Positions 1,773 to 34,384 of a DNA stretch of 34,384 nucleotides are shown here, piece after piece (positions within the stretch are counted from its first letter, which is position 1; the number at the start of each line of letters is the position of its first letter). Source of the stretch: Clostridia bacterium. GTDB taxonomy: Bacteria > Bacillota > Clostridia > TANB77 > CAG-465. The DNA is taken from NCBI GenBank assembly GCA_030524345.1, contig JAUNGP010000016.1, forward strand, positions 1-34,384, given 5' to 3'. The notes under the pieces are model-generated. The model ran no database searches. It saw only the letters and a list, made by a program, of their open reading frames with translations, and was not told the origin of the DNA. The translations under genes were made by a program, and so were the position numbers.

Positions 1773-4625
1773 TTAACCTAAAACAATGTTTACTATTTTA
1801 GATTTAATCACAATCACTTTCTTAATTTCCTTGCCATTTAAGTATTGTGATAAATTACTACTTTCTAATACAATCTTTTCTGTAGTTTTTTCATCTGCAT
1901 CAGCAGGTACATTAATTCTAAATTTAACAGACCCGTTAATTTGCACCGGTATTTCGATACTTTCTGTTACGATCTTTGTTTCATCATAAGTTGGCCACTT
2001 GCTTTCAAATACATAACCTTCAAATCCTAATCTTTGCCATAATTCTTCCGTAACATGAGGTGCAACAGGATTTAATATTTGAAGTAAAGGTTTTATATAT
2101 TTTTTACTTACTTTTTCTTGTTTGTATAATAAATTTACATATGACATCATTGCAGCAATTGCAGTGTTATACTTCATATCTTCAAAATCTTCTGTTACTT
2201 TTTTAATTGTCTTATTAATTTCTCTTTCTAATTCCTTTGATTCTATATCTTCATCTGTTGCCATATTTTCAAGTCTCATAATCCTATCAAGGAATTTCTT
2301 AGCTCCCTTAACACCATTTTCAGACCAAGGCGCTGGAAGTGAGTATTCTCCAATAAACAATATATAGGTCCTTAAAGTATCCGCGCCAAAAGTTTTTACA
2401 ATTTCATCAGGATTGATAACATTTCCTTTTGATTTTGACATCTTTTCACCATCTGGTCCTAAAATAAGGCCTTGAGCAGTTCTTTTCATATATGGTTCTT
2501 TAGTTGGTACAACACCAATATCATATAGGAATCTATGCCAAAATCTAGAATAGATTAAATGACGAGTAACATGTTCCATACCACCATTATACCAATCGAC
2601 ACATTTCCAATAATCAAGATTTTCTTTACTTGCCAAAGCATCATTATTTCTAGGATCCATATATCTTAAGAAATACCAGCTAGAGCCTGCCCATTGAGGC
2701 ATTGTATCTGTTTCTCTTTTAGCAGGTCCACCACAATGAGGACAAGTTGTATTTACCCACGAATCTACTTTAGCAAGTGGAGACTCTCCATCCTCTCCTG
2801 GAACAAAATTGTCGACTTCTGGTAAAGTTAAAGGTAAGTCTTTTTCAGATAATGGAACAAGACCACATCTCTCACATTTTACAATTGGAACTGGTTCTCC
2901 CCAATATCTCTGTCTTGCAAAAGCCCAATCTTTCATATGATAGTTTTTCTTTCTCCTACCAATTCTTTTTTCTTCAATATATTTAATTGCTTCCTCTTTT
3001 GCCTCTTTCACATCTAATCCATTTAAGAAACCAGAGTTTACCATTTTTCCATTATTAATATCAATATATGCTCTCTCATTAACAAACATATCAGTAACGA
3101 AATTTTGACTATCCACATTAATATTACTAGTTAAATTTTCTTTACTAACCCACCTGCAAGTATGCATTGCAAGCTCTTCTTGGCTCACATCCACTTTACA
3201 TTCATCTGCAAGTTCTATATAAACAGGATACTGAATAATATCTCTATTCACATTTTTGTGAGCAGCGTAAAAACTATCATAAGATATAGAGCTTAATAAG
3301 TAAGCATTTTTTACATTAAAATAGCCAGTTTCCTCTTTCATCTCACGAATTGCAGCATCAATTTCTGTTTCGCCTTCTTCAATTCCACCCATGACAAAAG
3401 ATTTCCATCCATATTTTGAGTTATAATCTTGAATTAAATATTTATCTTCTGTTGGATGCTTAATAATTGCAAGAGCAACACGTCTTTTAGTATTTTCTAC
3501 TCCCTCTCTTTTTGCATCTTCACCAGTTGCAATAAAATGTGGTGCAACGACTTGTATCATATTGATACCAAACTTTTTAGCAAATTCAAAATCTCTTGTA
3601 TCATGAGCAGGAACAGCCATAATAGCACCTGTACCATATCCCATCATTACATAGTCAGTAACCCATAATGGTACAACATTTCCAGTAACGGGATTGACTA
3701 CTTTTAATCCATAGACTTCAACACCTGTTTTTTCCTTAGCAAGTTCAATTCTTTCAAATTCTGATTTTTTATTTGCTTTTTTCTTATATTCAACAATTTC
3801 ATCATAATTTTGGATTCTATCTTTATATTTTTCAAGTAAAGGATGTTCAGGTGCAATTGCCATATAAGTTACACCAAATATTGTATCTGGTCTTGTTGTA
3901 TAGACAGTCAGTTTATCATCTGTACCATCTACTAAAAAGTCAATTTCTGCTCCATATGATCTTCCAATCCAGTTTTCTTGTTCAAGTCTTACCCTAGGAT
4001 GAAATTTGACTTCATCTAGTCCATCAAGTAGTTTATCTGCATAATCTGTAATTTTAAGCATCCAAACTTCTTTTTCCTTTTGAACGATTTCACTATCACA
4101 TCTATCACATTTTCCACCTTGAGACTCTTCATTGGCAAGAATAACTCTACATTTTGGACAGTAATTTACATATGTTTTATCCTTATAAGCTAGTCCATGC
4201 TCAAATAACTTTAAAAATATCCATTGTGTCCATTTATAATAATTAGGATCTGTTGTATCTATTACTCTATCCCAATCAAAAGAAAAACCAACAGATTTTA
4301 ATTGCTTTGTAAAAGTAGCAATATTATCATCAGTTACTTTTCTTGGATGAATACCCGTCTTAATAGCATAATTTTCAGTAGGAAGTCCAAAAGCATCAAA
4401 TCCTATTGGAAATAATACATTATAATCTTCCATTCTTCTTTTTCTAGATATTACATCCATTCCCATATATGCTCTTATATGACCAACATGCATACCTGCG
4501 CCTGATGGATATGGAAATTCGATTAGTGAATAAAATTTTTTCTTTGACTTATCTTCACTTGCATGAAAACATTTCTTTTCTTCCCATATTTTTTGCCATT
4601 TACCATCTATACTTTTATCATACAT
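1773..4625 (-). CDS. leuS: Leucyl-tRNA synthetase with an inserted Nudix domain
   Basis: Class I aminoacyl-tRNA synthetase that charges tRNA-Leu in the cytoplasm. Visible are HVGH (46-49), cysteine pairs of a zinc site (156/159, 173/176), editing-domain motifs TTRPDT (243-248) and AVPAHDTRDF (337-346, with D345), KMSKS (728-732) and a C-terminal tRNA-binding part. Bacterial LeuRS is usually about 800-860 aa; this one is 950. The excess is a block of roughly 150 aa (about 362-515) directly after the editing motif. It contains a perfect Nudix box at 413-435 (G-x5-E-x7-REMKEETGY). Downstream, the LeuRS sequence resumes at AYIDINNGKMVNSGF. The ATG is preceded by GGAGAG. The gene lies 15 nt after the HD-protein gene, with no room for a T-box leader. 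The LeuRS call is certain; what the Nudix part does is unknown. Confidence 0.97.
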   Translation of the reverse strand: MYDKSIDGKWQKIWEEKKCFHASEDKSKKKFYSLIEFPYPSGAGMHVGHIRAYMGMDVISRKRRMEDYNVLFPIGFDAFGLPTENYAIKTGIHPRKVTDDNIATFTKQLKSVGFSFDWDRVIDTTDPNYYKWTQWIFLKLFEHGLAYKDKTYVNYCPKCRVILANEESQGGKCDRCDSEIVQKEKEVWMLKITDYADKLLDGLDEVKFHPRVRLEQENWIGRSYGAEIDFLVDGTDDKLTVYTTRPDTIFGVTYMAIAPEHPLLEKYKDRIQNYDEIVEYKKKANKKSEFERIELAKEKTGVEVYGLKVVNPVTGNVVPLWVTDYVMMGYGTGAIMAVPAHDTRDFEFAKKFGINMIQVVAPHFIATGEDAKREGVENTKRRVALAIIKHPTEDKYLIQDYNSKYGWKSFVMGGIEEGETEIDAAIREMKEETGYFNVKNAYLLSSISYDSFYAAHKNVNRDIIQYPVYIELADECKVDVSQEELAMHTCRWVSKENLTSNINVDSQNFVTDMFVNERAYIDINNGKMVNSGFLNGLDVKEAKEEAIKYIEEKRIGRRKKNYHMKDWAFARQRYWGEPVPIVKCERCGLVPLSEKDLPLTLPEVDNFVPGEDGESPLAKVDSWVNTTCPHCGGPAKRETDTMPQWAGSSWYFLRYMDPRNNDALASKENLDYWKCVDWYNGGMEHVTRHLIYSRFWHRFLYDIGVVPTKEPYMKRTAQGLILGPDGEKMSKSKGNVINPDEIVKTFGADTLRTYILFIGEYSLPAPWSENGVKGAKKFLDRIMRLENMATDEDIESKELEREINKTIKKVTEDFEDMKYNTAIAAMMSYVNLLYKQEKVSKKYIKPLLQILNPVAPHVTEELWQRLGFEGYVFESKWPTYDETKIVTESIEIPVQINGSVKFRINVPADADEKTTEKIVLESSNLSQYLNGKEIKKVIVIKSKIVNIVLG

Positions 4626-9161: not shown

Positions 9162-9965
9162 TTATTTTTTATCTTCTTCTAAATATAACTTTGCATGGAC
9201 CACAATTCTTCTCGTACTATCAGAAGTACATGTAGAAAGAGTAAGAATTCTATCTGGTGCTCCTACTGCTACATTAAAGTTAATTGTAGATCTTTCCTTT
9301 AAGGTATTTAAAAAATTATTATATGCTTCATCATCAGCAAAATTAGTTGTAAGATAATATGACTCTGGATCAACAATGTAAGTTGAAAATACTTTATACA
9401 CTCTATTTTTATCTTTTGTATAAATATATATGTCTACACTGTCGCCATATTTTCCTGCTTGAAGATCTTGAAGATCTGCAAACATCAAGCCAGTTTTTAT
9501 ATTATGTCCATAAATTATCGTATTTCTATCTGTAAAATCACCACTGTTTCTATAATCCATAAAAGGCCAGCCAAACCAACTATAATTTTTATCAATTGAT
9601 CTTCTAAGATAAAAATCATTATCATAAGATTGTAATATTGCATAATCTATAGCCGTGCCTTTAATTGTTATCCATCCTACAACATCGCTATTCATGCTTT
9701 CTAATTTTTCAAAATCGATTCCAAAAGTTGCTCCAATATTTTCTAAGTCACTGTTTGGTTCTACTTTTACAGTATTATTAATATTTTTTATCGTATCATT
9801 ACTTGCCTTATTTGTCTTTAAGTAGTTAAATAAAACATATCCTGAATAAGATAGAGCAAATAAACATACTATAAGTATTAAATATGCTATGATGTTTTTT
9901 ATGATTCTTCCAACTTTACCACTGTTTTTCTTTTCTTTTTTGACTTCTTCTATATTTTCACTCAT
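9162..9965 (-). CDS. srtB: Class B sortase
   Basis: Membrane-bound cysteine transpeptidase of 267 aa that attaches surface proteins to the cell wall or to each other. A membrane helix lies at about 21-47. The catalytic triad is H154 (IIYGHNIKTG), C246 (LTLSTC) and an arginine at R252/R253 (TRRIVVHAK). The sequence between H and C has the extra helix and the spacing of class B enzymes, and DVVGWITIKGT with DNDFYL and MDYRN are family hallmarks. GAGGG lies 8-9 nt before the ATG. The gene has its own promoter and terminator and no substrate gene beside it. The only obvious candidate substrate in the window is the Cna-B protein at 29320-34332, whose C-terminal signal is atypical. Confidence 0.93.
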   Translation of the reverse strand: MSENIEEVKKEKKNSGKVGRIIKNIIAYLILIVCLFALSYSGYVLFNYLKTNKASNDTIKNINNTVKVEPNSDLENIGATFGIDFEKLESMNSDVVGWITIKGTAIDYAILQSYDNDFYLRRSIDKNYSWFGWPFMDYRNSGDFTDRNTIIYGHNIKTGLMFADLQDLQAGKYGDSVDIYIYTKDKNRVYKVFSTYIVDPESYYLTTNFADDEAYNNFLNTLKERSTINFNVAVGAPDRILTLSTCTSDSTRRIVVHAKLYLEEDKK

Positions 9966-10154: not shown

Positions 10155-10709
10155 TTATTCTATTGTAAAACTTCTCATAGCAAGTATTGTCTCCTCAATT
10201 AATTTATCTAGATCCCATCCAAGCATATCAGCGCCTTTTTGAATCACTTCTCTAGAACATCCAGCTGCAAACTTTTTATCTTTAAATTTTTTCTTCACAG
10301 ATTTTAGTTCCAAATCCATAACACTTTTAGATGGTCTCATAATGGCAACTGCTCCAATTAATCCAGTTAATTCATCTGTTGCATATAGTACTTTTTCCAT
10401 GATATGTTCAGGTTTTATATTAACAGTCAATTCGTATCCATGACTAGCTGTTGCATGTATCAGTCTTTCGTCAAGATTTCTCTTTTTCATTATTTCTTGA
10501 GATTTTATACAATGCTCACTGGGATATCTCTCATAATCTAAATCATGTAAAAGTCCTACTATACCCCAAAATTCTGTTTCATCTGCAAAACCTAGTTTCT
10601 GACTAAAATATCTCATTACTCCCTCAACGGTCAAAGCATGTTTTAGATGAAATGGTTCACGATTATATTCTTTTAAAAGATCAAATGCTTCCTCTCTTGA
10701 AATATTCAT
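10155..10709 (-). CDS. HD-superfamily hydrolase
   Basis: 184 aa. The HD metal-binding pair is at H55-D56 (VGLLHDLDYERYP), with an upstream H24 (HLKHALTVEG) and downstream H66 and H89 (ATASHGYE), and a D at 112 (YATDELTGL). This is the pattern of small stand-alone HD phosphohydrolases (COG2316-like). Substrate unknown. AAGGAG lies before the ATG. It is a single-gene unit with its own promoter at 10735-10763, just downstream of the kinase-gene terminator. Confidence 0.85.
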   Translation of the reverse strand: MNISREEAFDLLKEYNREPFHLKHALTVEGVMRYFSQKLGFADETEFWGIVGLLHDLDYERYPSEHCIKSQEIMKKRNLDERLIHATASHGYELTVNIKPEHIMEKVLYATDELTGLIGAVAIMRPSKSVMDLELKSVKKKFKDKKFAAGCSREVIQKGADMLGWDLDKLIEETILAMRSFTIE

Positions 10710-10734
10710 CTATTCTTTCACTCCTTTTCTCACT

Positions 10735-10763
10735 ATTTTAACATATATTTTTATAAAACACAA
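10735..10763 (-). promoter_or_regulatory. Probable promoter of the HD-hydrolase gene
   Basis: Minus strand TTGTGT (10758-10763), 17-nt spacer ending TGT (extended -10), TAAAAT (10735-10740). It abuts the kinase-gene terminator stem. Confidence 0.55.
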
Positions 10764-10794
10764 CAAAGCAGATTCAAAATATCGAATCTGCTTT
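10758..10794 (-). terminator. Terminator after the kinase gene
   Basis: An 11-bp perfect stem AAAGCAGATTC/GAATCTGCTTT (10784-10794 with 10765-10775), 8-nt loop, then TTGTGTTTT on the minus strand, 10 nt past the kinase stop. The T-run is interrupted. Confidence 0.65.
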
Positions 10795-10804
10795 ATTGTA
10801 TATT

Positions 10805-12574
10805 TTAAGCACCAAACCTATATAATGTATTTTCACTTAAAATGTCAAAACCACCATTTCTAAATCTTAATACTGACTCTTCATTTACCACATGACACTC
10901 AAAGTTTTTAACTCTATTTTGTGCATAATTGATTCCAACGATTTTTTCAGAAGATGGTGAAAAGATGGTGTTATTGGCAAAACAAATGTTATTTAGAGAA
11001 GTAGCACTATATCGATAAATGGTACTATCAAATATTACTTCGCCTTTAGGAGATATTACAACTGTTCTGTGTCCCCCATTTCTAGTTTCATAAATAAAAA
11101 GCCAATTTTTGGTGACATCATCATACTTGATGGCATACTCAGTAATTTTATCATTGTAATTTAAGAATATACTATAGTTTTTAGAAGTGATTAGCATTTT
11201 CTTATCATACAAAAGAATTGCCAAATAATCTTTACTATTTGCAGCAAATATAGTGTTTACATATACTGGAAGTAAAGGCTCATAAAAGTTTCCTGTAGGC
11301 TTGATTTCACTTCTACAAAGTTTTAAAGTTTCATCAATATAATAAATAAACTTATCCACAATGTAGACAGACGACTTATATGTTTTATAAATCTTAAACA
11401 TAAAATTTTTGGTACTGGCATGATATACCAAAATCTCGCTGTCATATACTTCAAAAGCATACTTACCATCCTCAGAAAATTCCACCCTATACTCATTAGA
11501 TGCCTTCCAAGTATTGCCACTCTTTAAATGAACAAAGTTAAAATTGTTACTTAAATACTTACTAAAGTCAAAGAAGTAATTCACCTCTTTTGCTGTAAAT
11601 ATCGTTTTAATACTAAGTCCCTTGGCAACATTATTCTGAACAATACTAGGCATAACACTTACCTTAGCATTTTCATTGCAAATAGGACAATCTGAGTACT
11701 TAGAATAGTAGTACATTTGATGCTTATCACAAAACTTCATATGACTCAAAAGCTCTTCAAGTTCATTTGTAATGTACTTTCTTTCTCCTTTTTCGAAAAT
11801 AGCTAAAAAACTATCTAACAATTTTGGAGACATCCAAGCCCATGATTCAATCATTGGTGGAATCTTGATCTCATATTTTCCTAGTACAGAGATGTGTTTT
11901 TCAATTCTTGTTTTTGTATCCATATCTGGATCTTTTTCATAAGTTCCATTAAATGGATGAATGCGAGTTAAAAGTTTAAAGCAAAGAATTGCAAATGCAA
12001 ACATATCGGTTTTCTCATTTAATTCTACTCTGATCAAGTTTTTTCCCTTGTATTGATATGCATTAGGATCAGTATAAATTTCTGTGTACGCATCGGCCGG
12101 CAGTGCATCAATGCCAAAGCTATCGGTGTCAATATAGTACAAATCTTTTCCCTTCAACAAAACATTTTGTTCGTTGATATCACCAATACACTTTCCTTCC
12201 TTATGAATTCTTTCCATTTTTTTAGAATAATCAAGAAGAATTTCTAGTACATCCTTGTTTGTAAAGCCGGTAAGCTTAATGTACTTCTTTTTAGCTAATG
12301 TACCAATTGGAGATGCATTTTCCACTTTTTTTAAAGTGTAGCCTGCAAATTTGTTTGCAACTCTTACATCCTCTATTGGCGATACTACAAAAGGCATTTT
12401 GGTCGCTTTCAGCCATGCTAAAACTTTTTGTTCCTTCAAGTCAAGCATGACATGATCTTTAAAAATTTTCATAAGAGTTTTAGAATCAAATTCAAAAATC
12501 TTAGCTTCTCCGCCTTCTGCCATTAAATGATAAGTTCCATTTTCCAGTTCAGATTTTCTAATTTTAATTCCCAT
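10805..12574 (-). CDS. Ser/Thr protein kinase-like protein with zinc ribbon (TerY-P triad kinase)
   Basis: 589 aa. The N-terminal protein kinase fold has EGGEAKIFEF as the ATP loop, a lysine in LMKIF (about 36), catalytic GDINEQN (131-137, in place of HRDxxxxN) and DTDSFG (149-154, in place of DFG). It resembles the divergent YegI/TerY-associated kinases. Next comes a small zinc ribbon with C282, H285, C296 and C299 (FCDKH...DCPIC), then about 280 residues of beta-rich repeats without a clear family. The ATG at 12574 has AGGAGG 7 nt upstream. An ATG seven codons earlier overlaps the phosphatase stop and has no ribosome site. It lies directly behind the PP2C gene and behind the vWA gene, the gene set described for TerY-phosphorylation triads. 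Confidence 0.85.
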   Translation of the reverse strand: MGIKIRKSELENGTYHLMAEGGEAKIFEFDSKTLMKIFKDHVMLDLKEQKVLAWLKATKMPFVVSPIEDVRVANKFAGYTLKKVENASPIGTLAKKKYIKLTGFTNKDVLEILLDYSKKMERIHKEGKCIGDINEQNVLLKGKDLYYIDTDSFGIDALPADAYTEIYTDPNAYQYKGKNLIRVELNEKTDMFAFAILCFKLLTRIHPFNGTYEKDPDMDTKTRIEKHISVLGKYEIKIPPMIESWAWMSPKLLDSFLAIFEKGERKYITNELEELLSHMKFCDKHQMYYYSKYSDCPICNENAKVSVMPSIVQNNVAKGLSIKTIFTAKEVNYFFDFSKYLSNNFNFVHLKSGNTWKASNEYRVEFSEDGKYAFEVYDSEILVYHASTKNFMFKIYKTYKSSVYIVDKFIYYIDETLKLCRSEIKPTGNFYEPLLPVYVNTIFAANSKDYLAILLYDKKMLITSKNYSIFLNYNDKITEYAIKYDDVTKNWLFIYETRNGGHRTVVISPKGEVIFDSTIYRYSATSLNNICFANNTIFSPSSEKIVGINYAQNRVKNFECHVVNEESVLRFRNGGFDILSENTLYRFGA

Positions 12575-12585
12575 ATTCTTTCCTC

Positions 12586-13287
12586 CTAATAACAAATCGT
12601 AATATCATCTTTGATACTGTCATAGTTTCTTGCAATTTGAACTCGTATTCTTCCTGCTTTATCATTTAATAAGTTTTCATCTAACTTTGATTTAACAGGA
12701 AATCCTAAATCCAAAAGATACCTTAGTCCATCACTTGCGATTCCAACATTTTCATACTCCTCCTTAGAAAATTCTTTTGTTTTAAAAGAAACTCCCTCAG
12801 AATAAAGCTTAGATGAAATATAATTATACACATAATATTTTGGACATCCCTCATTACACTCGGATTCAAGAGAAATATACTCAAGCTCATCTTCAGCTTC
12901 GCTTACATTCTTTTTTCTAGTAATAATGTATCCATCACCACAGTACTTCACAACAAATTTTTCTTCAAGTTCATATACAATCAGAATTGTAAAGCAAAAG
13001 TTCTGTGAGATAAAACTTTTATCTGTTGCAAGCGAAATCAATTTGTCAAATATTAAATTGACGCACGTTTCAAGTAGCTCTGGGTTATTTCTTATATCCT
13101 TTGGTAGTCTTTCAAACAATTGTGAAAAGAGCTTAACACCTACCTCAGATTTTAACCACTCTCCATTTTCATCTTTAGAGCATCCATCAAGCACCATCTT
13201 AATATTGTCTACTGCCAAGAAGTAGTCTTGATTGGCAATATCTTCAAAAACATGTAACGATCCCATTTTATTAATCAAAACTGACAT
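12586..13287 (-). CDS. PP2C-like protein phosphatase (TerY-P triad)
   Basis: 233 aa. It shows the PP2C/PPM motifs in order: NQD (19-21), VLDG (32-35), CGDGY (116-120), ASDGLRY (184-190) and DDIT (227-230), supplying the metal-binding aspartates. It should remove phosphate from Ser/Thr, presumably opposing the kinase encoded 11 nt downstream. AAGGAGG lies 6 nt before the ATG. A strong terminator hairpin separates it from the vWA gene and no promoter is visible in that gap. Its expression therefore probably depends on read-through. Confidence 0.85.
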   Translation of the reverse strand: MSVLINKMGSLHVFEDIANQDYFLAVDNIKMVLDGCSKDENGEWLKSEVGVKLFSQLFERLPKDIRNNPELLETCVNLIFDKLISLATDKSFISQNFCFTILIVYELEEKFVVKYCGDGYIITRKKNVSEAEDELEYISLESECNEGCPKYYVYNYISSKLYSEGVSFKTKEFSKEEYENVGIASDGLRYLLDLGFPVKSKLDENLLNDKAGRIRVQIARNYDSIKDDITICY

Positions 13288-13303
13288 AGATTTCCTCCTT
13301 AAT

Positions 13304-13335
13304 CAAAAAAGGGGATGGCTAATTTAACCATCCCC
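13304..13335 (-). terminator. Intra-operon terminator between vWA and PP2C genes
   Basis: A GC-rich 8-bp stem GGGGATGG/CCATCCCC (13328-13335 with 13311-13318), 9-nt loop, then TTTTTT on the minus strand. It falls 20 nt after the vWA stop and 17 nt before the PP2C ATG. Confidence 0.85.
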
Positions 13336-13355
13336 AAATAGTAATTATTGTTTTG

Positions 13356-14048
13356 TTATACCTGGAAAAATGCTCCAGCAGATGGATTAACTGCATTCTT
13401 ACTTGCAGAGATAGCAGATTTTGAAACAATATCAAAAATATTTCTCAAAGTCTTCTCATCAGCCTTGTCATATTCCAATACATTCCTAAATCCCAGATCC
13501 GTTCCAATACCGCATGCATTTGCACCAAAGCCGATATATGCTGTAATGATTTCTTTCTGGTTCAGATACTCAATAGCACGTCTTGCATCACTTGCAGAAA
13601 GATTGGAATGCTCATCGTTGCCATCAGTAATGATAACAAAGATTCCTTTTGTAGAAATTCCATTCTTTTTCAACTCATCAATGTAACCATCTTTTTGATC
13701 AGTTACCAGGGACACCTGTGCACCTACGATTGCATCATAAAGTGCAGTTCCGCCGCTAGAATGATAACTGGAATCAACATCTTTTACCATCTTGTATCCG
13801 GAACGGCTTACATTATGGTCAAATTTTGTTAAACTGATCAAGAATTCATCTTCACTTTTACTGTGAATAATAGCATCCTTTACTGTTTCGATGCAGCCGG
13901 GCATAACACTGTCATAATTCCACATTGATCCGGACTTGTCGACATACAGAGCAAGTACCGTCTGACGTTCACTTTCGAGTTCATCGATCTGAACATTCTT
14001 GCCAAGATCATAATCGTCTCCACCAAAAATAGTTGTAATTTTACTCAT
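13356..14048 (-). CDS. TerY-like vWA-domain protein
   Basis: 230 aa, essentially one von Willebrand factor A domain. The MIDAS metal site is complete: DKSGSM (37-42), the threonine in SGGTALYDA, and ITDGND. TerY-like proteins are thought to act as cytoplasmic scaffolds in stress and phosphorylation complexes with a kinase and a PP2C. Both partners lie directly downstream here. The gene and its upstream neighbour look clearly more G+C-rich, with CTG, CAG and GGC codons, than the flanking genes, which suggests acquisition as a pair. AAGGAG precedes the ATG. The gap to the isochorismatase-like gene is 30 nt, and a strong terminator follows. Confidence 0.88.
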   Translation of the reverse strand: MSKITTIFGGDDYDLGKNVQIDELESERQTVLALYVDKSGSMWNYDSVMPGCIETVKDAIIHSKSEDEFLISLTKFDHNVSRSGYKMVKDVDSSYHSSGGTALYDAIVGAQVSLVTDQKDGYIDELKKNGISTKGIFVIITDGNDEHSNLSASDARRAIEYLNQKEIITAYIGFGANACGIGTDLGFRNVLEYDKADEKTLRNIFDIVSKSAISASKNAVNPSAGAFFQV

Positions 14049-14078
14049 AATGTTTCTCCTTTCATTTTGTAGACCAGT

Positions 14079-15092
14079 TTAAAGCTGCAAATCGGTAGAC
14101 TTAACCAAGTTGATATTGTACTGCTTCTGAAGTCTCAAAAGTTCGGCTTCAGTCTGTGCCTCAGTACCCGGAATACAAGAACAGCAGTCAATCAAGAAAT
14201 AGACTTTGCTTGTAATCTCAGGCCTATCAGAATAAACCTCAAGAAACTGTTTCAAAGATTCCAGTACACAGTGAGACTTTGCCTCACCAGCAACCAAAAT
14301 TCTGTCATATTCTGCGATCTTATTGGTTGCAGTAGTGTTGACCTTAGAGGTACCACCTCTGGAATATTCTTCTTTGAAGATACCATACATTTCAGAATAA
14401 GGACTCTGACCTTTCTGAATACTTAATGCACGGTTTCTTCTTGCCGCCTCATGGAAATAGATCATCTTAACCAGCTCCTGTTCGGGAAGCCAGCCCTTTG
14501 TAAACTCCAGACAATGCTGTGTCCAAATTGTAAGTTTCTGCTTACTGGTATTATCCAGCCCTTCCAGATATTCCTTGAAGATTCGAGGATACATCGTAGG
14601 AGTGTATTCACCAGCATCAGAAGCTTCCTTGGTAATCATCGTGTACGGCTTCACATATTCACCATTTTTATCTTTCCAGCAGCATGCGGAAAAAACATGG
14701 AACAGTGAATGTGTATCCAAGGAGATCATAAATCTTGTGATCTTATCCAAATTGTTGTAAGCAAATCTTAACAGACGTTTAAAGTCTTCGGCAGCTCCAG
14801 GGACTGCGAGTGTACCGTTATCCTCAAAATCAAACTGCGGATCAATGATCAAGAACAAAGTCTTGACAATGTCATTTTCGGAAGGCTCAAGATCCTCAGA
14901 AAGTCCCATATCCAGGATATCCTGATATCCAAGCTCCTTTTCTGACTCAAGCATACTGATCAGCTCAGATACTTCTTTTTTAGGATACTTAACAGCCAGG
15001 TCACTCAGTCTCTTCATATACCACTGCTTGTCGGACAGGCCGATACGATCTTCACATACAATACTCTCATAGGGTGTTTTCAGTTTTGTCAT
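14079..15092 (-). CDS. Isochorismatase/nicotinamidase-family cysteine hydrolase
   Basis: 337 aa, longer than the usual 180-210 because of an N-terminal helical extension (about 1-75) and insertions. The family core is visible: catalytic D84 in IIDPQFDF, metal-site LDTH (125-128), WTQHC (190-194) and the nucleophile C275 in VAGEAKSHCV. Relatives hydrolyse nicotinamide, pyrazinamide or isochorismate; the substrate here is unknown. It is the first gene of the vWA/PP2C/kinase operon, shares the raised G+C of the vWA gene, and has AGGAGG before the ATG. Transcription starts about 335 nt upstream at a consensus promoter. Confidence 0.87.
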   Translation of the reverse strand: MTKLKTPYESIVCEDRIGLSDKQWYMKRLSDLAVKYPKKEVSELISMLESEKELGYQDILDMGLSEDLEPSENDIVKTLFLIIDPQFDFEDNGTLAVPGAAEDFKRLLRFAYNNLDKITRFMISLDTHSLFHVFSACCWKDKNGEYVKPYTMITKEASDAGEYTPTMYPRIFKEYLEGLDNTSKQKLTIWTQHCLEFTKGWLPEQELVKMIYFHEAARRNRALSIQKGQSPYSEMYGIFKEEYSRGGTSKVNTTATNKIAEYDRILVAGEAKSHCVLESLKQFLEVYSDRPEITSKVYFLIDCCSCIPGTEAQTEAELLRLQKQYNINLVKSTDLQL

Positions 15093-15150
15093 AGTTTTTT
15101 CCTCCTATTTTATAAATTGATTGGTTTAACTTGTTAACAAACAACTTGAT

Positions 15151-15179
15151 TTGTTTTTTTCTCTAAAAAGTGTTATAAT
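15151..15179 (+). promoter_or_regulatory. Plus-strand promoter inside the operon leader
   Basis: TTGTTT (15151-15156), 17-nt spacer, TATAAT (15174-15179) preceded by TGT (extended -10). It faces away from the isochorismatase gene and has a terminator 70 nt downstream. Confidence 0.6.
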
Positions 15180-15185
15180 ATAATA

Positions 15186-15293
15186 ACAGTATTTTTAGAT
15201 AAAGAATTGAAAGCGCCAACTTAATTTTCTTTAAAACTAAAATCTGTAGGATATAAAGTAATTAGCTAAGCTATTTATTTTATATCTTTTTTT
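15186..15293 (+). ncRNA. Candidate antisense RNA (about 108 nt)
   Basis: A plausible transcription unit on the plus strand: the extended -10 promoter at 15151-15179, about 108 nt without a coding frame, then an intrinsic terminator (15250-15293). It is fully complementary to the middle of the leader of the isochorismatase-vWA-PP2C-kinase mRNA, so it could base-pair with or interfere with that transcript. It matches no RNA family I recognise. Confidence 0.45.
15250..15293 (+). terminator. Plus-strand intrinsic terminator in the operon leader
   Basis: Near-perfect hairpin starting GATATAAA (15250-15257) and closing TTTATATC (15279-15286), with one T-T mismatch and one wobble over about 16 pairs, followed by seven T on the plus strand. 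On the minus strand no T-run follows, so it acts on plus-strand transcripts only. Confidence 0.75.
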
Positions 15294-15338
15294 GTTTGCA
15301 TATTTTCTACATAAACTACTTTGTTAAAACATTTAATA

Positions 15339-15360
15339 CTATACCATATGATTTCCTCCC
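15339..15360 (-). other. Two-codon mini-ORF with strong ribosome site in the leader
   Basis: GGGAGG (15355-15360) stands 7 nt before ATG GTA TAG (15339-15347). An 8-bp stem-loop (15365-15384) ends just upstream of it. It may be a ribosome-loading site for leader control or a remnant of a lost gene. Confidence 0.4.
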
Positions 15361-15432
15361 TTCATCCTAATTTCTTAATTAGGAGATTCACAAACCAAAT
15401 TTTTTGTTTGTTATTATCTTTTTGTTAATAAC

Positions 15433-15461
15433 ATTATATTCAAAACGTAATCATTTGTCAA
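15433..15461 (-). promoter_or_regulatory. Consensus promoter of the isochorismatase-vWA-PP2C-kinase operon
   Basis: Minus strand TTGACA (15456-15461), exactly 17 nt, TATAAT (15433-15438): both hexamers perfect. It predicts a start near 15427 and the long leader described separately. Confidence 0.85.
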
Positions 15462-15554
15462 CACTTTTTTGAAAATTTTTTAATATTTTTTTAAGTTTAT
15501 TTTTGTAATATTTATGAAATCCAGTCATATCAAGGCTTTCATAAATTACGATAA

Positions 15555-15597
15555 AATAGAAAAAAATATGGAAATCATAAACTATCTCCATATTTTT
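15555..15597 (-). terminator. Terminator after the alpha/beta hydrolase gene
   Basis: An 11-bp stem AAAAATATGGA/TCCATATTTTT (15587-15597 with 15562-15572), 14-nt loop, then TTC and T-rich sequence on the minus strand, 15 nt past the stop. Confidence 0.75.
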
Positions 15598-15612
15598 AAT
15601 CAATTTTCTAAA

Positions 15613-16392
15613 TTATGTATCTAAAAATTTCCTTATTTCATTAAGACAAGATTTCTGTTTCTCTGCAAAAGCAAAATGTCCACAATGATCATACATTATT
15701 GTTTTCTTCGATACTATTTGAAGTTCTAGTGTATCTGCAACTGATATAAAATCATAATCTCCTTTGATCAGTAAAATATCATTTTGAAGAGTTTGACAAA
15801 AATTTGAAAAATCAAATTTTGTAATCTCACTATTTATTTTATCACACATCTGATGATTATATATAGAAAAATCAACTTTTTTCCCAGAATCATATAAATA
15901 ATAAGGAAGCAACAACGACATGATCATAAGTCCTGCCTCTTCACTATTTTTTAATTCAAAATAGTGAATTTTTTCCATTACTTCTTTGGGTATTCTTTTT
16001 AATAACACCTTGCTACTTTTTACATAGTCATCATATTTTAATGGTGATGGATTAATAACAACGATTTTATCAATATTAACATCATCATACTTTTCTAATA
16101 CACTAAATAATAAATGAGATCCAAACGAATGAACGAATACATCTTTTTTCTCATTACAAAACGTTAAAATATCATGTAATTGTTCACATAATATATCTAA
16201 ACTAGTACACTCTTCTTTGTATAGCCCATATTGATTATAAAAGACAAGCTCTCTTGTATCTGATAAAGGCACAAGAAATTTATATAAATAGGAATAATCA
16301 AGTCCAGGTCCACCTCCAATCACATAAAGTGGCTTTCCTACTCCTACTTTTTCAATATAATATTTACTATTTATATAGAATCTCTGATTCAT
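15613..16392 (-). CDS. Alpha/beta hydrolase (proline iminopeptidase-like)
   Basis: Predicted 259 aa. Features of the alpha/beta hydrolase fold: an oxyanion segment GGGPG (26-30; usually HGGPG), a nucleophile serine near 89 in VHSFGSH (a relaxed elbow, with V where G is usual), an aspartate in GDYDFIS, and the final histidine in DHCGHFAFAE. The HGGPG-like motif points to the proline iminopeptidase group, but the substrate is unknown. An open frame continues 37 codons upstream. However, the promoter at 16414-16442 lies inside that stretch, and GAGGG sits 5 nt before the ATG at 16392, so the shorter start is chosen. It is a single-gene unit with a terminator. Confidence 0.82.
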   Translation of the reverse strand: MNQRFYINSKYYIEKVGVGKPLYVIGGGPGLDYSYLYKFLVPLSDTRELVFYNQYGLYKEECTSLDILCEQLHDILTFCNEKKDVFVHSFGSHLLFSVLEKYDDVNIDKIVVINPSPLKYDDYVKSSKVLLKRIPKEVMEKIHYFELKNSEEAGLMIMSLLLPYYLYDSGKKVDFSIYNHQMCDKINSEITKFDFSNFCQTLQNDILLIKGDYDFISVADTLELQIVSKKTIMYDHCGHFAFAEKQKSCLNEIRKFLDT

Positions 16393-21637: not shown

Positions 21638-21919
21638 TTATAGAGTAGAACAACAAACATCATGCTTTACTCTATCTTTTTCTTCTGCTCTTTTAGCGTT
21701 ATTAAATCTATCTACTGTTCCTACTAAATATCCTGTTATCCTTCTAATTCTCTCAAAAGGAACATTATTTACAAAAGTATAATTCATATCAACAAAATCA
21801 CCATCAATTTTTAAATCTAATGTTGCAATTTCCTTATCTGGAAATTTTTCACCTAAATACTTAACATAGCTATCTATTTCCTCTTGTTTCATTTCACCAT
21901 TCATAACATTAATTTTCAT
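21638..21919 (-). CDS. Stand-alone NrdD-type glycyl-radical domain protein
   Basis: 93 aa. Residues 55-91 are almost identical to the C-terminal end of NrdD, including RRITGYLVG with the putative radical G63 and the final VKHDxCCS. At DNA level about 110 bp (21648-21757 against 22024-22133) differ at only about six positions. Residues 1-54 are unrelated to the part of NrdD preceding that segment and carry no zinc cysteines. AGGGGG lies 8 nt before the ATG. It lies between nrdD and nrdG, so it is made with the activase. By analogy with GrcA/YfiD, it could replace a damaged glycyl-radical loop of NrdD; this is inference. It may also be a non-functional by-product of duplication. Confidence 0.8.
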   Translation of the reverse strand: MKINVMNGEMKQEEIDSYVKYLGEKFPDKEIATLDLKIDGDFVDMNYTFVNNVPFERIRRITGYLVGTVDRFNNAKRAEEKDRVKHDVCCSTL

Positions 21920-22002: not shown

Positions 22003-24351
22003 TTAGTCATCAAAACTTTCAGATGAACAACAAATATCATGCTTTACTCTATCTTTTTCTTCTGCTCTTTTAGCATTATTAAATCTATCTACTGTTCCTA
22101 CTAAATACCCTGTTATTCTTCTGATTCTTTCAAAGCCAACTTGATTATCTTCAAATTCATGTCTTCCACAATGTGGACATTCATCTTTAATAATTCCAGT
22201 ATATCCGCATACAGGATCTCTATCTACTGGATGATTTACTGAACCATATCCTATTCCTGACTCCTTCATACATCTTACAACCTGCTCGAACGCCTCTAAA
22301 TTCTTTGTTGGATCTCCATCTAATTCAACATAACTAATATGTCCACCATTTGTTAAATTATGATATGGAGCTTCAATTCTTATCTTATCAAATGCATTTA
22401 TTTTATAATATACTGGTACATGGAATGAATTTGTATAATAATCTCTATCAGTAACACCAGGTATAATTCCAAATTTCTTCTTATCCATTCTTACAAATCT
22501 TCCAGAAAGGCCTTCTGCTGGAGTGGCTATTACTGTAAAATTAAGTTTTCTTTTCTTAGCCTCTTCGTCCATTCTTGCCCTCATATGAGAAACAATTCTT
22601 AGGCCAAGTTCTCTTGCTTCTTCACTTTCACCATGATGTTTCCCTATAAGTGCTTTTAATGTTTCTGCAAGACCTATAAATCCAACTGTAAGACTTCCAT
22701 GCTTTAGTACTTCTCCTACTTCATCATCAAATTTTAATTTCTCAGAATCAAGCCAAACATGCTGTCCCATTAAAAATGGATAATTATATACATGTTTTGC
22801 TGATTGAATCTTCAATCTATGAAGTAATTGATCAATCACTAAATCTAACTTTTCATCTAACATTTCAAAGAATTTATCGATATCACCTTTTGCAAGTATT
22901 CCAAGTCTTGGTAAATTAATAGATGTGAAACTTAAATTTCCCCTTCCACAAGTAACTTCTCTTGTAGGATCATATACATTTGCCATAACTCTTGTTCTAC
23001 ATCCCATATATGCAACCTCTGTATTATAATCACCTGGTCTATAATATGGTAAATTAAATGGGGCATCTATGAATGAGAAATTAGGAAATAGTCTCTTAGC
23101 AGATACTTTACAAGCAAGTTTAAATATATCATAATTTGGTTCACCAGGATTGTAATTAATACCATCTTTGATTTTTAGTATTTGAATTGGGAAAATTGGT
23201 GTTTCGCCTTGACCAAGACCTGCATCAGTTGCAAGTAACAATTGTTCCATTACAAGTCTACCCTCTGGAGTTGTATCAAGTCCGTAGTTAATACTACTAA
23301 ATGGTACTTGTGCTCCTGCTCTAGAATGCATTGTATTTAAATTATGAATAAATCCTTCCATTGCTTGATATGTAGCTTTTGTTACTTCTTGTTCTGTATA
23401 TTTTACTGCAAATTCTTGTATTTTTTCTACAACTTTAGGGTCAAACATTTTCTCAAGTTCTTTTCTTTCTACTGCCAAATATCCATTACTGTCTCCTAAT
23501 GTAGCCAATAAATCCTTTTCATATTTTATCGTTTTAACAATGTCTTTTGCAATGAATTCTGGATCTTTTACATCTGTTAATAATTCTATTGCTTTTGTTA
23601 AATTTTTAAGATATTCCCTTTTATATGTTTTTCTAACACCAATTGCCATAGCATATTCAAAGTTTGGTACACTTTGACCACCATGTTGATCATTTTGATT
23701 TGATTGGATTGCTATAGCTGCAAGAGCTGCATAGCTTCCAATTGACTGTGGTTCTCTTAAATGTCCTTCTCCAGTACAGAAGCCATCCTTAAATAGTTTT
23801 ACCAAATCTATTTGACAACATGTAGTAGTAAGAGTTAAAAAGTCCAAATCATGTATATGTATATCACCATCAGCATGTGCTTTTGCATGTTCTTTTTTTA
23901 GTACAAACATTTGATAAAATTTCTTTGCACCCTCAGAACCATATTTTAGCATTGTACCCATCGCTGTATCAGCATTTACATTTGCATTTTCTCTTTTAAC
24001 ATCACTATCTTTTGCGTCCTTAAATGTTAATTGCTCATATGTTTTCATTATTTCAGAGTTCATTTCTCTTTGTCTTGTTCTTTCTGCCCTATACAATATA
24101 TAAGCTTTTGCAGTAGATGCATGACCTTCTTCAATTAAAATATGTTCAACTGCATCTTGAACTTGTTCTACAGTTGGTTCTTTTAATTCCAATTCTTCAT
24201 CAATATAATGACATATTTTATCAGCAAGTTCTTCTGAAGTTTTATAATCTTGACCTCCTACTGAATTAGCAGCTTTATAGATTGCTTGTGCAATTTTTTC
24301 TGCGCTAAATGCTACCTTTCTTCCATCTCTTTTAACTATCTTAGTTATCAT
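22003..24351 (-). CDS. nrdD: Anaerobic (class III) ribonucleoside-triphosphate reductase
   Basis: 782 aa oxygen-sensitive enzyme that reduces NTPs to dNTPs using a glycyl radical. An N-terminal ATP-cone is at about 1-90 (KIVKRDGRKVAF), followed by the 10-stranded barrel core with HIHDLDFLT and conserved active-site cysteines. Near the C-terminus are zinc-site cysteines (DPVCGYTG, ECPHCGRHE) and RRITGYLVG with the radical glycine near 748. The tail ends CCSSESFDD. The ATG at 24351 has AGGGG 10 nt upstream; a GTG four codons earlier lies on top of that site. It is the first gene of nrdD-radical domain-nrdG-nrdR, behind a consensus promoter and NrdR box. Confidence 0.97.
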   Translation of the reverse strand: MITKIVKRDGRKVAFSAEKIAQAIYKAANSVGGQDYKTSEELADKICHYIDEELELKEPTVEQVQDAVEHILIEEGHASTAKAYILYRAERTRQREMNSEIMKTYEQLTFKDAKDSDVKRENANVNADTAMGTMLKYGSEGAKKFYQMFVLKKEHAKAHADGDIHIHDLDFLTLTTTCCQIDLVKLFKDGFCTGEGHLREPQSIGSYAALAAIAIQSNQNDQHGGQSVPNFEYAMAIGVRKTYKREYLKNLTKAIELLTDVKDPEFIAKDIVKTIKYEKDLLATLGDSNGYLAVERKELEKMFDPKVVEKIQEFAVKYTEQEVTKATYQAMEGFIHNLNTMHSRAGAQVPFSSINYGLDTTPEGRLVMEQLLLATDAGLGQGETPIFPIQILKIKDGINYNPGEPNYDIFKLACKVSAKRLFPNFSFIDAPFNLPYYRPGDYNTEVAYMGCRTRVMANVYDPTREVTCGRGNLSFTSINLPRLGILAKGDIDKFFEMLDEKLDLVIDQLLHRLKIQSAKHVYNYPFLMGQHVWLDSEKLKFDDEVGEVLKHGSLTVGFIGLAETLKALIGKHHGESEEARELGLRIVSHMRARMDEEAKKRKLNFTVIATPAEGLSGRFVRMDKKKFGIIPGVTDRDYYTNSFHVPVYYKINAFDKIRIEAPYHNLTNGGHISYVELDGDPTKNLEAFEQVVRCMKESGIGYGSVNHPVDRDPVCGYTGIIKDECPHCGRHEFEDNQVGFERIRRITGYLVGTVDRFNNAKRAEEKDRVKHDICCSSESFDD

Positions 24352-24389
24352 AAAAAATACCACCCCTTGTGTTCCTTCTTATATTCAAC

Positions 24390-29319: not shown

Positions 29320-32300
29320 TTATTTTTGATTTAACCCTATTTTATTCTTTCTTACAATTAATATTCCAACAAGTACTCCAACAATTGCTATAAGGAAAAT
29401 GATAAAATAGATCCAAATATTTTTATCACTTGTTTCTACTGGCGGTTCATATGTACATGTATTGATTATTTTATTTCCCTCTATTTTACTTTCATAATCT
29501 CTTACTTCTTTTTCTACTATGCTATATTCCACTTCATTTCCAAGTTTATCATACTTTGGTAACTCAAATGTATGTTTCCAATTTTCTTTTTTATTTACTG
29601 CATATTCTGTTACTACTTCTCCTTTCGCTATAATCTGTACTACTACACTTTCAGGACGTTTTCCATATTTATCATTTTGATCGTTCCATTCCTTTTCTAC
29701 TGTTAATTCTATTCTATCATCTGGTACTACAAATTGATTGATTATTGTATTTCCTATGATTTCTTTGATATAGAACTCACTTTCTGTTTCTTTTTCATCT
29801 ACACTATATTCTATCTCGTTTCCTAGTTCATCATATTTTGGTAACTCAAATATATATTTCCAATTATCCGCTTCTGTTACTTCTTGCTCTGCTACTACAA
29901 CTCCATCTGCTTTGATTTGTAACACTACACTATTTGATCTTTTTCCTGCTTCGTTATCATTATCATCCCATACTTTTAATACTTCCATTTCTACTTTTTC
30001 ATCTGGCACTTTAAATGTATTTGTTATCTCATTTCCATTAATTTCTTTTTCATAAAAGATACTTGTTATTTCTTCATCGATTGTATATTCTATTTCATCT
30101 CCTAATTCATCATATTTTGCTAGTTTAAATGTATATTTCCAATGATTTTCTTCACTTAATGTATATTCTGTTACTTTCTGTCCCTTAGCACTTACTATTA
30201 TTTTAATACTTTCTGGGCGCTTTCCCACTTTATCATTTTCATCTTTCCATATCTTTTCTACTGGTATCTCTATTTGGTCATCTGGTACTACGAATCGATT
30301 TGTGATTACATTTTCTGTTATTTCTTTTACATAGAATTTTGACTCAAATTCTTCATCTACTGTATACTCTATTTCATTTCCTAGTCTATCATATTTTGGT
30401 AACTCAAATGTATATCTCCAGTTATCGTTTTCTGTCACTGTTTTTCTTGCTACTTCTTTTCCTTCTGCTTTTACGATTAACTCAATACTTTCTGGCCTTT
30501 TATTTGCTTTATTTTCTTCATCTTCCCATATTTTCAATACTTCTATTTCTACTTTCTCATCTGGTACTTTAAATGTATTTGTTACTTCATTTTTATCTAT
30601 TGTTTTTTCATAGAACTTATTGCTATAATCTTCATCTATTGTATATATAATTTCTTTTCCATTGGAATCATATTTTAGTTTCTTCTTAAATACAGTTCTC
30701 CAATTACTTTCTTCATTTACTTCTACTCTTTCATTCTCTATTCCATCTGCATATAATATGAGATTTATACTATCTGGTCTCTTCTGTGGCTCATTTGCAT
30801 TATCTTCCCATTTCTTGATTGCTTCTATATCCACATATGTGATGAGTCCTGCATTAATATTTTCTTCTTCTATTAGTTCTAGTTTTTCTTCTGTATTTAG
30901 TTTTGTTAATATATCTGTCCTTGCACTATTGTTTTTTACTGCATTAATATTGCTATTAATTGTCTCATCTTCTCCTACTAATTTCTTGGTTGCTTCATAC
31001 TTTGTTCCATCTACTAAAAACTCTACAATATATTCTCCTTTTGGTAATGAACTAAATTCATAATATCCATTCTCATCTGTTGTCACACTTTCTACTTTAC
31101 TTCCTTCTACATCTATTGCTTCATTTCCTTGTTTATCTAGTAATCTGACTTTGATTCCTGATAATAACTCTTCTGTTTCTTCTTTTATTCCATTTTGATT
31201 TTTATCTTCAAATACTCTTCCACTTATTTTTCTCTCTATTACTTTATCTATTTGGATATTGGATTTGATCACTCCTGTGAAACTATCTACTGTTACATTT
31301 GCACTACTTCCATATTCATCTCCTGCTTGATTTCCTCTTGGCAATATGGTATATCCTATCTTGCTACTTTCTCCTGATGTTAATACTTCTTTTACAAAAA
31401 TGAATGCTGTTGTATCTTCTGCTACTTTTCCTTCTTCTATTTTAGTCCAATTATCATTATTTTCTAAGTCTACACCTACTGCACTTAGCTTACCATTTTG
31501 ATCTCTTGTTAAACCGCCATCTGTTTCCAACTTATCTAATGGTAATGTTGTATAATATCCTGTTATATCATCTGGTATATTTACTTCTTTTAATGTATAT
31601 TCTCCCGTAAAATGTGTCCCATTCTCATCTCCATTATATGGTAATATATCCAGCATTCTGATATTAGTTAGATCTTTGTCACTTCCACTTACTACTTCTG
31701 TTTCAAATCTTATATCACTGTTTATTTCTACTACTGGTGTATCTGTACTTTTTTCTACTCCTAGCCCCGCTAAGTTTACAATTGTAATTCCATATGAGCC
31801 TGTTCTTGCGCTTTCATATGACCAATCGTTTGCTGTTGAGATAACCACTTTATTTGTTAATTTCTCATTGTTTTTTAAAGTATAACTCATTTCTGCCTGA
31901 AAAGTTATCTTTGGGTATTCTGGTGCTTCATGATTAATCTGCCAATTTTCGTATTCCCATACGATTTCTGTGATTCCTGTTTCTTCATTTAATGTTACAC
32001 TTACTGGCTCTTTATTAGCACTTCCCTCTACGTATGTTAATCCCTTTGGTAGATAATCTACTACTTGTACTTTATCCACATAGGCATCATTGTCTGTTGC
32101 TTCTTTTTCTGTACTAAGCTTTGGTGTTACACTAAAATTTATCATTCTCTCATTTACATCATAAGTTGTTTTTGGTTTGTTACTACTTCCCAAATCCTCT
32201 ACTGATGTTGCTACTGTTACATGATAAGGTATAACTAATATGTTATTTCCTCTTGTTTCGTCTACATGATATTTTTGAATGATTCCATTATTATCATATT

Positions 32301-34332: not shown

Positions 34333-34384
34333 TTTCTCCTCCTGTCTGTTATGATTATGGCGACTCGCACGCAAAAAGAGCTGG

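Follow-up and report, generated by a model that had tools for sequence, protein, structure and literature searches.

The four-gene operon and its products

We analysed the whole of contig JAUNGP010000016.1 from a Clostridia bacterium, a stretch of 34,384 nt called the window below; it is contig C37 of genome G000, which is 1.71 Mb long and 99.9% complete. Four genes on the minus strand of the window form a single operon (15461-10765). They encode, in order, a nicotinamidase-like cysteine hydrolase of 337 aa (14079-15092), a vWA protein of 230 aa with a complete metal ion-dependent adhesion site (MIDAS; 13356-14048), a PP2C phosphatase of 233 aa (12586-13287) and a YegI-like Ser/Thr kinase of 589 residues (10805-12574). 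An earlier note on this DNA, made from the letters alone, had recognised the same four genes in the same order, and that arrangement stands. The span it gave, 10805-15461, encloses the four genes, and its upper end proves to be the -35 box of the promoter.

By itself, the hydrolase matches no Pfam family, PF00857 (Isochorismatase) included, and no NCBIfam family in a single-sequence scan. It is too divergent for such a scan, since the family profile does reach solved nicotinamidases. The assignment rests on that profile, built from 12 relatives and compared with the Protein Data Bank (PDB), plus the fold. The profile matches yeast Pnc1 (2h0r, E 2.3e-16), other nicotinamidases, and PncA (3pl1, E 9e-10). 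The AlphaFold model (pLDDT 95.4) has a predicted isochorismatase-like fold, and nicotinamidases rank first when it is searched with Foldseek (2wta, 2wt9 and 3v8e; for 2wta, E 3e-12 and target TM 0.79). The catalytic residues D84, K227 and C275, aligned to those of Pnc1, and the metal ligands D126, H128 and H193 are invariant in all 93 hydrolase sequences. By profile, predicted fold and intact active site, the hydrolase is thus assigned as a nicotinamidase, so the nicotinamide-like substrate proposed in the earlier note was right in kind; the signalling role attached to it is not supported as stated. The 75-aa extension described there is also real: residues 1-75 are helical in the model, and the extension is full length in the genus of the window, reduced in the remaining bacteria and in a single phage subclade, and missing in most phages. 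A second family feature is an insertion at residues 139-185 with conserved W139, G144, T151 and Y175.

The other three products make up a TerY-P-like triad, as the earlier note had it, by homology to YegL, PphC and YegI of E. coli plus the zinc ribbon. The vWA protein aligns with YegL in hhalign (E 8e-9), and its MIDAS (D37, S39, S41, T101 and D142) is complete in 82 of 82 copies, with threonine for S39 in four. Three serines near its C-terminus (S209, S211 and S216) are kept in about 95% of copies; we regard them as candidate phosphorylation sites. The phosphatase scores above the cut-off for PF13672 and aligns with PphC (hhalign E 3e-5), and the metal-binding D34, D118 and D186 are present in 75 of 75 copies. 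Translation of the kinase most likely begins at ATG 12574, preceded by AGGAGGA, a better start than TTG 12595. The kinase aligns with YegI (hhalign E 3e-14) in an alignment extending to the YegI CPxC motif, and the kinase residues K36, D132 and D149 are found in all 64 copies. In its structure model (pLDDT 91), the kinase domain occupies residues 1-280, and VIA-align superimposes residues 6-277 on PknB with a Z of 19.1; kinase-domain matches fill the VIA-align list. The zinc ribbon (C282/H285/C296/C299) and beta-rich tail (residues 320-589) noticed earlier are both present. Every bacterial copy has the ribbon, as does one phage subclade, and the other phages lack it; the tail is probably a beta-propeller, judging by eye from the strand pattern of the model.

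The earlier note had remarked on the absence of TerD and TerC partners, and a Pfam scan of window proteins likewise finds no family of Ter, restriction or CoCoNuT genes among those scanned. Such linked genes are not required of stand-alone TerY-P-like triads (PMC11090510). PADLOC returns weak kinase-domain matches only, to PD-T4-6-like models. Elsewhere in the genome (L136, contig C34, 1000-16000), there is a second cluster that reads PP2C, vWA, a 529-aa protein, vWA and a 1561-aa double kinase, adjoining a SpoIVA-like ATPase identified by eye. Many genomes of the order encode kinase relatives 1300-1700 aa long, with no nicotinamidase accompanying them.

The operon has a sigma-A promoter, TTGACA-N17-TATAAT (15433-15461, minus strand), which fits the consensus at 12 of 12 positions and is the sole such match in 10500-15700; its -35 and -10 boxes are kept in L017, L018 and L019. 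Directly 3' of the -10 box is a palindromic operator, GTTATTAACAAAAAGATAATAAC (15410-15432, minus strand), a putative NrtR site. The long 5' leader that follows (15093-15409, minus strand) is about 330 nt, versus about 100 nt in relatives. The extra stretch of about 230 nt between promoter and hydrolase (15110-15340) is not in three relatives of the same genus, and no known RNA family matches it; a riboswitch in the leader was considered and rejected, the Rfam matches being weak with none at the gathering score. A hairpin scan finds a terminator-like hairpin in the gap between the vWA and PP2C genes (13311-13335, minus strand). Strong hairpins occupy this gap in other bacterial loci too, most with a T run; those of the window, L017, L018, L019, L020, L021 and L023 are GC-rich and conserved in position and not in sequence. 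The hairpin is a probable attenuator, judged from these sequences. A last hairpin closes the operon (10765-10794, minus strand; the scan lists it on the plus strand, and the stem can work on both).

Distribution in bacteria and huge phages

Among 143 related bacterial genomes, the hydrolase is clearly present in nine, once as a fragment (G134) and once standing alone (G079). All four genes are present in seven, G000 included, which belong to two families. A class-wide search of 391 genomes gives strong hydrolase matches only in the window's own genome and in G010; the remaining matches are weak (E 1e-4 to 1e-10), to ordinary nicotinamidase-like proteins. In a phage collection, four records carry the hydrolase, three of which are huge-phage assemblies of 462-595 kb. 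Scanning IMG/VR with the window hydrolase as a single protein gives no match, and scanning it with the family alignment gives 173 relatives. We fetched 80 of these loci, on contigs up to 485 kb, and all four genes lie within about 17 kb in 62 of them. After de-duplication and with the bacteria included, 59 of 73 loci hold all four genes, always on one strand, and 48 have them in exactly the window order. Of the four, the genes for the hydrolase and the vWA protein keep closest together, as direct neighbours in 51 cases. The terminase family PF03237 was found as a phage marker in only 6 of 22 records, so the phage status of single contigs rests on IMG/VR and on assemblies LR756500, LR756511 and LR745208.

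The same picture emerges when the contigs are anchored on the kinase, with the narrow alignment A9 (alignment A5 is too diverse). The hydrolase is then found in 69 of 73 phage loci and all four genes in 68, and most of the four kinase loci without a hydrolase are at the edge of a stretch or contig. The earlier note had proposed a neighbourhood survey as one check of the unit, and hydrolase and vWA genes without kinase and PP2C are not the pattern that such surveys find.

In trees, the bacterial sequences fall within a clade that has strong support and is itself surrounded by those of phages. This suggests transfer of the unit from phages to bacteria, with the qualification that long branches leave the root unsure. 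In G080, a large serine recombinase is encoded on each side of the unit (L020, 3331-12613), an arrangement like that of a mobile element. L022 and L023 represent one chromosomal site (gpsA-plsY-der, by eye) and both have Prs/Namat genes and the nicotinamidase; the vWA, PP2C and kinase genes are in L023 only, making a natural with/without pair. In two phage-labelled contigs, a DUF2828-like protein with a vWA-type domain is encoded 5' of the unit (L013, 2255-3706, and L032, 5609-7105; by eye).

Links to NAD+ synthesis and the shared operator

In the phage loci, the commonest neighbours after the four genes themselves are NadE, PncB and a nicotinamide mononucleotide (NMN) adenylyltransferase/Nudix protein, their families confirmed. 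When whole phage contigs are considered, 28 have NadE, and in 19 of these it is no more than 20 kb from the hydrolase (4.7 expected); for nicotinate phosphoribosyltransferase (NAPRTase), the same holds in 19 of 27 (5.2 expected). Genes of the RNA-repair type also recur near the unit in huge phages, namely KptA/Tpt1, Thg1 and, by eye, RtcB (L090, 833-1378; L039, 6910-7716; L027, 13878-15155). Tpt1 consumes NAD+.

The bacterial carriers show a parallel association. Every one of the nine carriers has a NAPRTase, compared with 29 of the 134 non-carriers (Fisher, p = 3e-6); within the genus of the window, the figures are 4 of 4 and 4 of 24 (p = 0.003), both p values being generous since related genomes are not independent. 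No PF00857 nicotinamidase was found in G010, G024, G080, G097, G079 or G134, and G142 has one below the cut-off only. Since G010 and G024 have pncB, nadD and nadE grouped together and no PF00857 nicotinamidase, the hydrolase of the unit is the sole nicotinamidase candidate there. In G097 and G079, members of one genus, the hydrolase is adjoined by Prs-like and NAMPT-like genes, a NARP1-like pair; the best match of the NAMPT-like protein from L023 is the SpbetaL1 Namat 9W5W (E 3e-135 versus about 1e-48 for human Nampt). Adps and Namat are absent from the window.

The operator is a further tie between the unit and NAD genes. This palindrome recurs, at the corresponding position after TATAAT, before the unit in G024 and G010, and it also precedes NAD operons in all three genomes: pncA-pncB in G000, Nudix-pncB-nadE-nadD in G024 and Nudix-pncB in G010. 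A consensus built from these six sites (three units and three NAD operons) was searched in the 143 genomes. It matches exactly in seven places only, which are the six input sites and nadE of G000, a gene that was not in the building set; G000 thus has three, and G024 and G010 have two each, at the unit and the pncB operon. Matches with one mismatch include nadD-nadE in G079 and G092 and pncB in G066 (gene names by eye), and several have no NAD gene nearby. When a weight matrix is made from the NAD genes only, the site before our operon ranks first in the window at 33.1 bits; the next separate window site scores 6.7 bits, and the best of 40 Markov copies 15.8 bits. In L164 (G056, contig C34, 1993-6690), NadE and a divergent NrtR-like gene (by eye) come after a NARP1-like Adps-Namat pair, and a one-mismatch operator lies upstream of the pair; the NAD regulon may include bacterial NARP1.

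NrtR genes (PF21906) adjoin the pncB operons of G010 and G024, and NrtR leaves DNA upon ADP-ribose in the species tested (PMC12735969, PMC6800001). We infer that NrtR binds the site at 15410-15432. In some Clostridia, the unit appears to be switched on together with the genes that rebuild NAD.

Beyond these genes, the window encodes a leucyl-tRNA synthetase carrying a NUDIX domain at residues 381-502 (1773-4625; Pfam E 4e-12), a class B sortase (9162-9965) and a surface protein of 1684 aa that contains Cna_B and SdrD_B repeats (29320-34374). A 93-aa open reading frame (21641-21919) duplicates the C-terminal end of the anaerobic ribonucleotide reductase, whose full-length gene adjoins it (22003-24363).

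Interpretation and comparison with known systems

We favour, with fair confidence, the reading of the operon as a phosphorylation-controlled NAD+ salvage unit under two controls, one that probably opposes NAD+ depletion. Nicotinamide is released wherever NAD+ is cleaved, and the hydrolase would turn it into nicotinate, a step for which the support is good; PncB, NadD and NadE would then rebuild nicotinate into NAD+. In the genus of the window, and again with good support, the promoter would be held by a repressor common to the NAD operons, most likely NrtR. Cleavage of NAD+ also yields ADP-ribose, which on building up would release the repressor from this operon and the NAD operons alike. As the second control, and less surely, we infer that the kinase and phosphatase set the activity of the hydrolase, probably by way of a vWA protein bound to it, a go-between suggested because the hydrolase and vWA genes are the closest pair; the conserved C-terminal serines of the vWA protein would be the best candidate target of the kinase. 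The hairpin between the vWA and PP2C genes would keep hydrolase and vWA protein abundant and the kinase and phosphatase regulators scarce. In huge phages, the unit, near genes for PncB, NadE and NMN adenylyltransferase, would bring NAD+ back during infection, also in the face of NADase defences of the host. The earlier note had the hydrolase supplying or destroying a signal. That is not supported as stated, and we prefer NAD+ salvage because the NAD neighbours, the co-occurrence with NAPRTase and the common operator fit it better.

Several observations weigh on the other side. An NrtR gene was not located in G000, and the operator is missing in carriers of the other family (L020-L023) and in phages. 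Neither NadE nor NAPRTase is present in 18 of the 50 phage records tested, many of which are fragments. An ordinary nicotinamidase gene is also present near pncB in G000 and G008, so these two genomes could strictly do without a second such enzyme. Finally, a paralogous triad without a nicotinamidase exists in the same genome, G000.

The strongest competing explanation, and one that we hold to be a serious contender at somewhat less than even chances, puts counter-defence first. In it, the unit is an NAD+ reconstitution system of huge phages that senses and repairs loss of NAD+ to host NADases, like NARP1 in purpose, and the bacterial copies are domesticated phage genes. The predominance of huge-phage contigs among the loci, the nesting of bacterial sequences among phages in the outgroup-rooted tree, the NARP1 genes adjoining the hydrolase in G097 and G079 and the serine recombinases on both sides of the G080 unit all agree with it. 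However, that tree is rooted on long branches, the unit has no known host defence context and no known infection phenotype, and the NAD-regulon operator points to housekeeping use in bacteria. Phages also need NAD+ for an NAD-dependent DNA ligase (L032), for which plain provisioning would suffice.

Signalling in defence or stress of the TerY-P type is unlikely. The triad would be the sensor, and the nicotinamidase an effector that removes nicotinamide or changes the NAD+ pool as an alarm; nicotinamide inhibits NAD-consuming enzymes. The homology of the triad to YegI, PphC and YegL is in its favour, and TerY-P-like modules can be anti-phage defences (PMC11090510, citing Gao et al. 2020). Yet the conserved set includes no toxic effector or nuclease, the phages themselves carry it, PADLOC matches are weak and confined to the kinase domain, and the common operator and neighbours indicate NAD synthesis rather than cell death. 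The unit may nonetheless have a stress or counter-defence role.

It is more doubtful still that the hydrolase works on some other amide, such as one in a peptide or a modified nucleobase, with an indirect link to NAD. Its identity to characterised nicotinamidases is below 20% in structural alignments, and the conserved insertion at residues 139-185 is specific to the family. Against this, the best profile and fold matches are all nicotinamidases and include no other isochorismatase-like enzymes, the catalytic and metal residues agree with nicotinamidases, and in G010 and G024 the hydrolase fills the gap before nicotinate phosphoribosyltransferase. That a metabolic gene and a signalling triad are neighbours by chance, for which one could cite the nicotinamidase-free triad elsewhere in the genome, the lone hydrolase in G079 and the fragment in G134, is effectively ruled out because the four-gene set recurs in surveys anchored on either the hydrolase (59 of 73 de-duplicated loci with all four genes on one strand) or the kinase (69 of 73 loci with the hydrolase).

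Going beyond phosphorylation-controlled salvage, we would entertain, as a tentative idea, that huge phages invented or spread a phosphorylation-gated NAD+ switch. The triad would sense the collapse of NAD+ or its products and activate the nicotinamidase, giving phages a further, regulated route beside NARP1 to survive NADase immunity, and some Clostridia would have taken the unit over under their ADP-ribose-responsive NAD regulon. TerY-P-like kinase/phosphatase/vWA triads are widespread and, to our knowledge, have no known targets. In the present unit, such a triad has a fixed metabolic partner whose reaction can be predicted and is easy to assay, so that what these triads do can be put to a direct test. 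If the link holds, a regulated salvage unit for NAD+ exists in huge phages and was overlooked in the phage literature searched, and bacteria share it under a control that is probably ADP-ribose-responsive, joining protein phosphorylation, NAD+ repair and phage conflict.

A search of the open-access literature found no paper describing the four-gene unit. Its parts are known; their fixed combination, their spread in huge phages and their place in a bacterial NAD regulon appear to be new. The nearest phage precedent is the survey of 224 jumbo phages by Iyer et al. 2021 (PMC7824862), which names NAPRTase and NMN adenylyltransferases among NAD+ systems. The likeness is phage-encoded NAD+ synthesis in large phages, and the difference is that neither PP2C nor isochorismatase appears as a word anywhere in that survey. 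NARP1 (Adps and Namat) likewise recovers NAD+ from the products of its cleavage, and it adjoins the nicotinamidase in G097 and G079; however, it uses nicotinamide directly, whereas the present unit would deamidate it to nicotinate and has phosphorylation genes of its own. With Preiss-Handler salvage (PncA, PncB, NadD and NadE) under NrtR, the unit shares the nicotinamidase step, the common operator and PncB and NadE as linked or co-occurring genes. It differs in that its nicotinamidase is divergent, has the N-terminal extension and the insertion, and is coupled to a kinase, phosphatase and vWA protein, a set without which, as far as we know, ordinary NAD salvage operons exist. The TerY-P triad, finally, consists of a TerY vWA protein, a PP2C phosphatase and a kinase that ends in a zinc ribbon or an OB fold. 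It shares with our unit the joint encoding of a vWA protein that has MIDAS, a phosphatase of the PP2C type and a YegI-like kinase with a zinc ribbon behind it. The present unit departs from it in the long beta-rich tail of the kinase, in the lack of Ter or restriction genes and, in many phage copies, of the zinc ribbon, and in a constant fourth member, the nicotinamidase.

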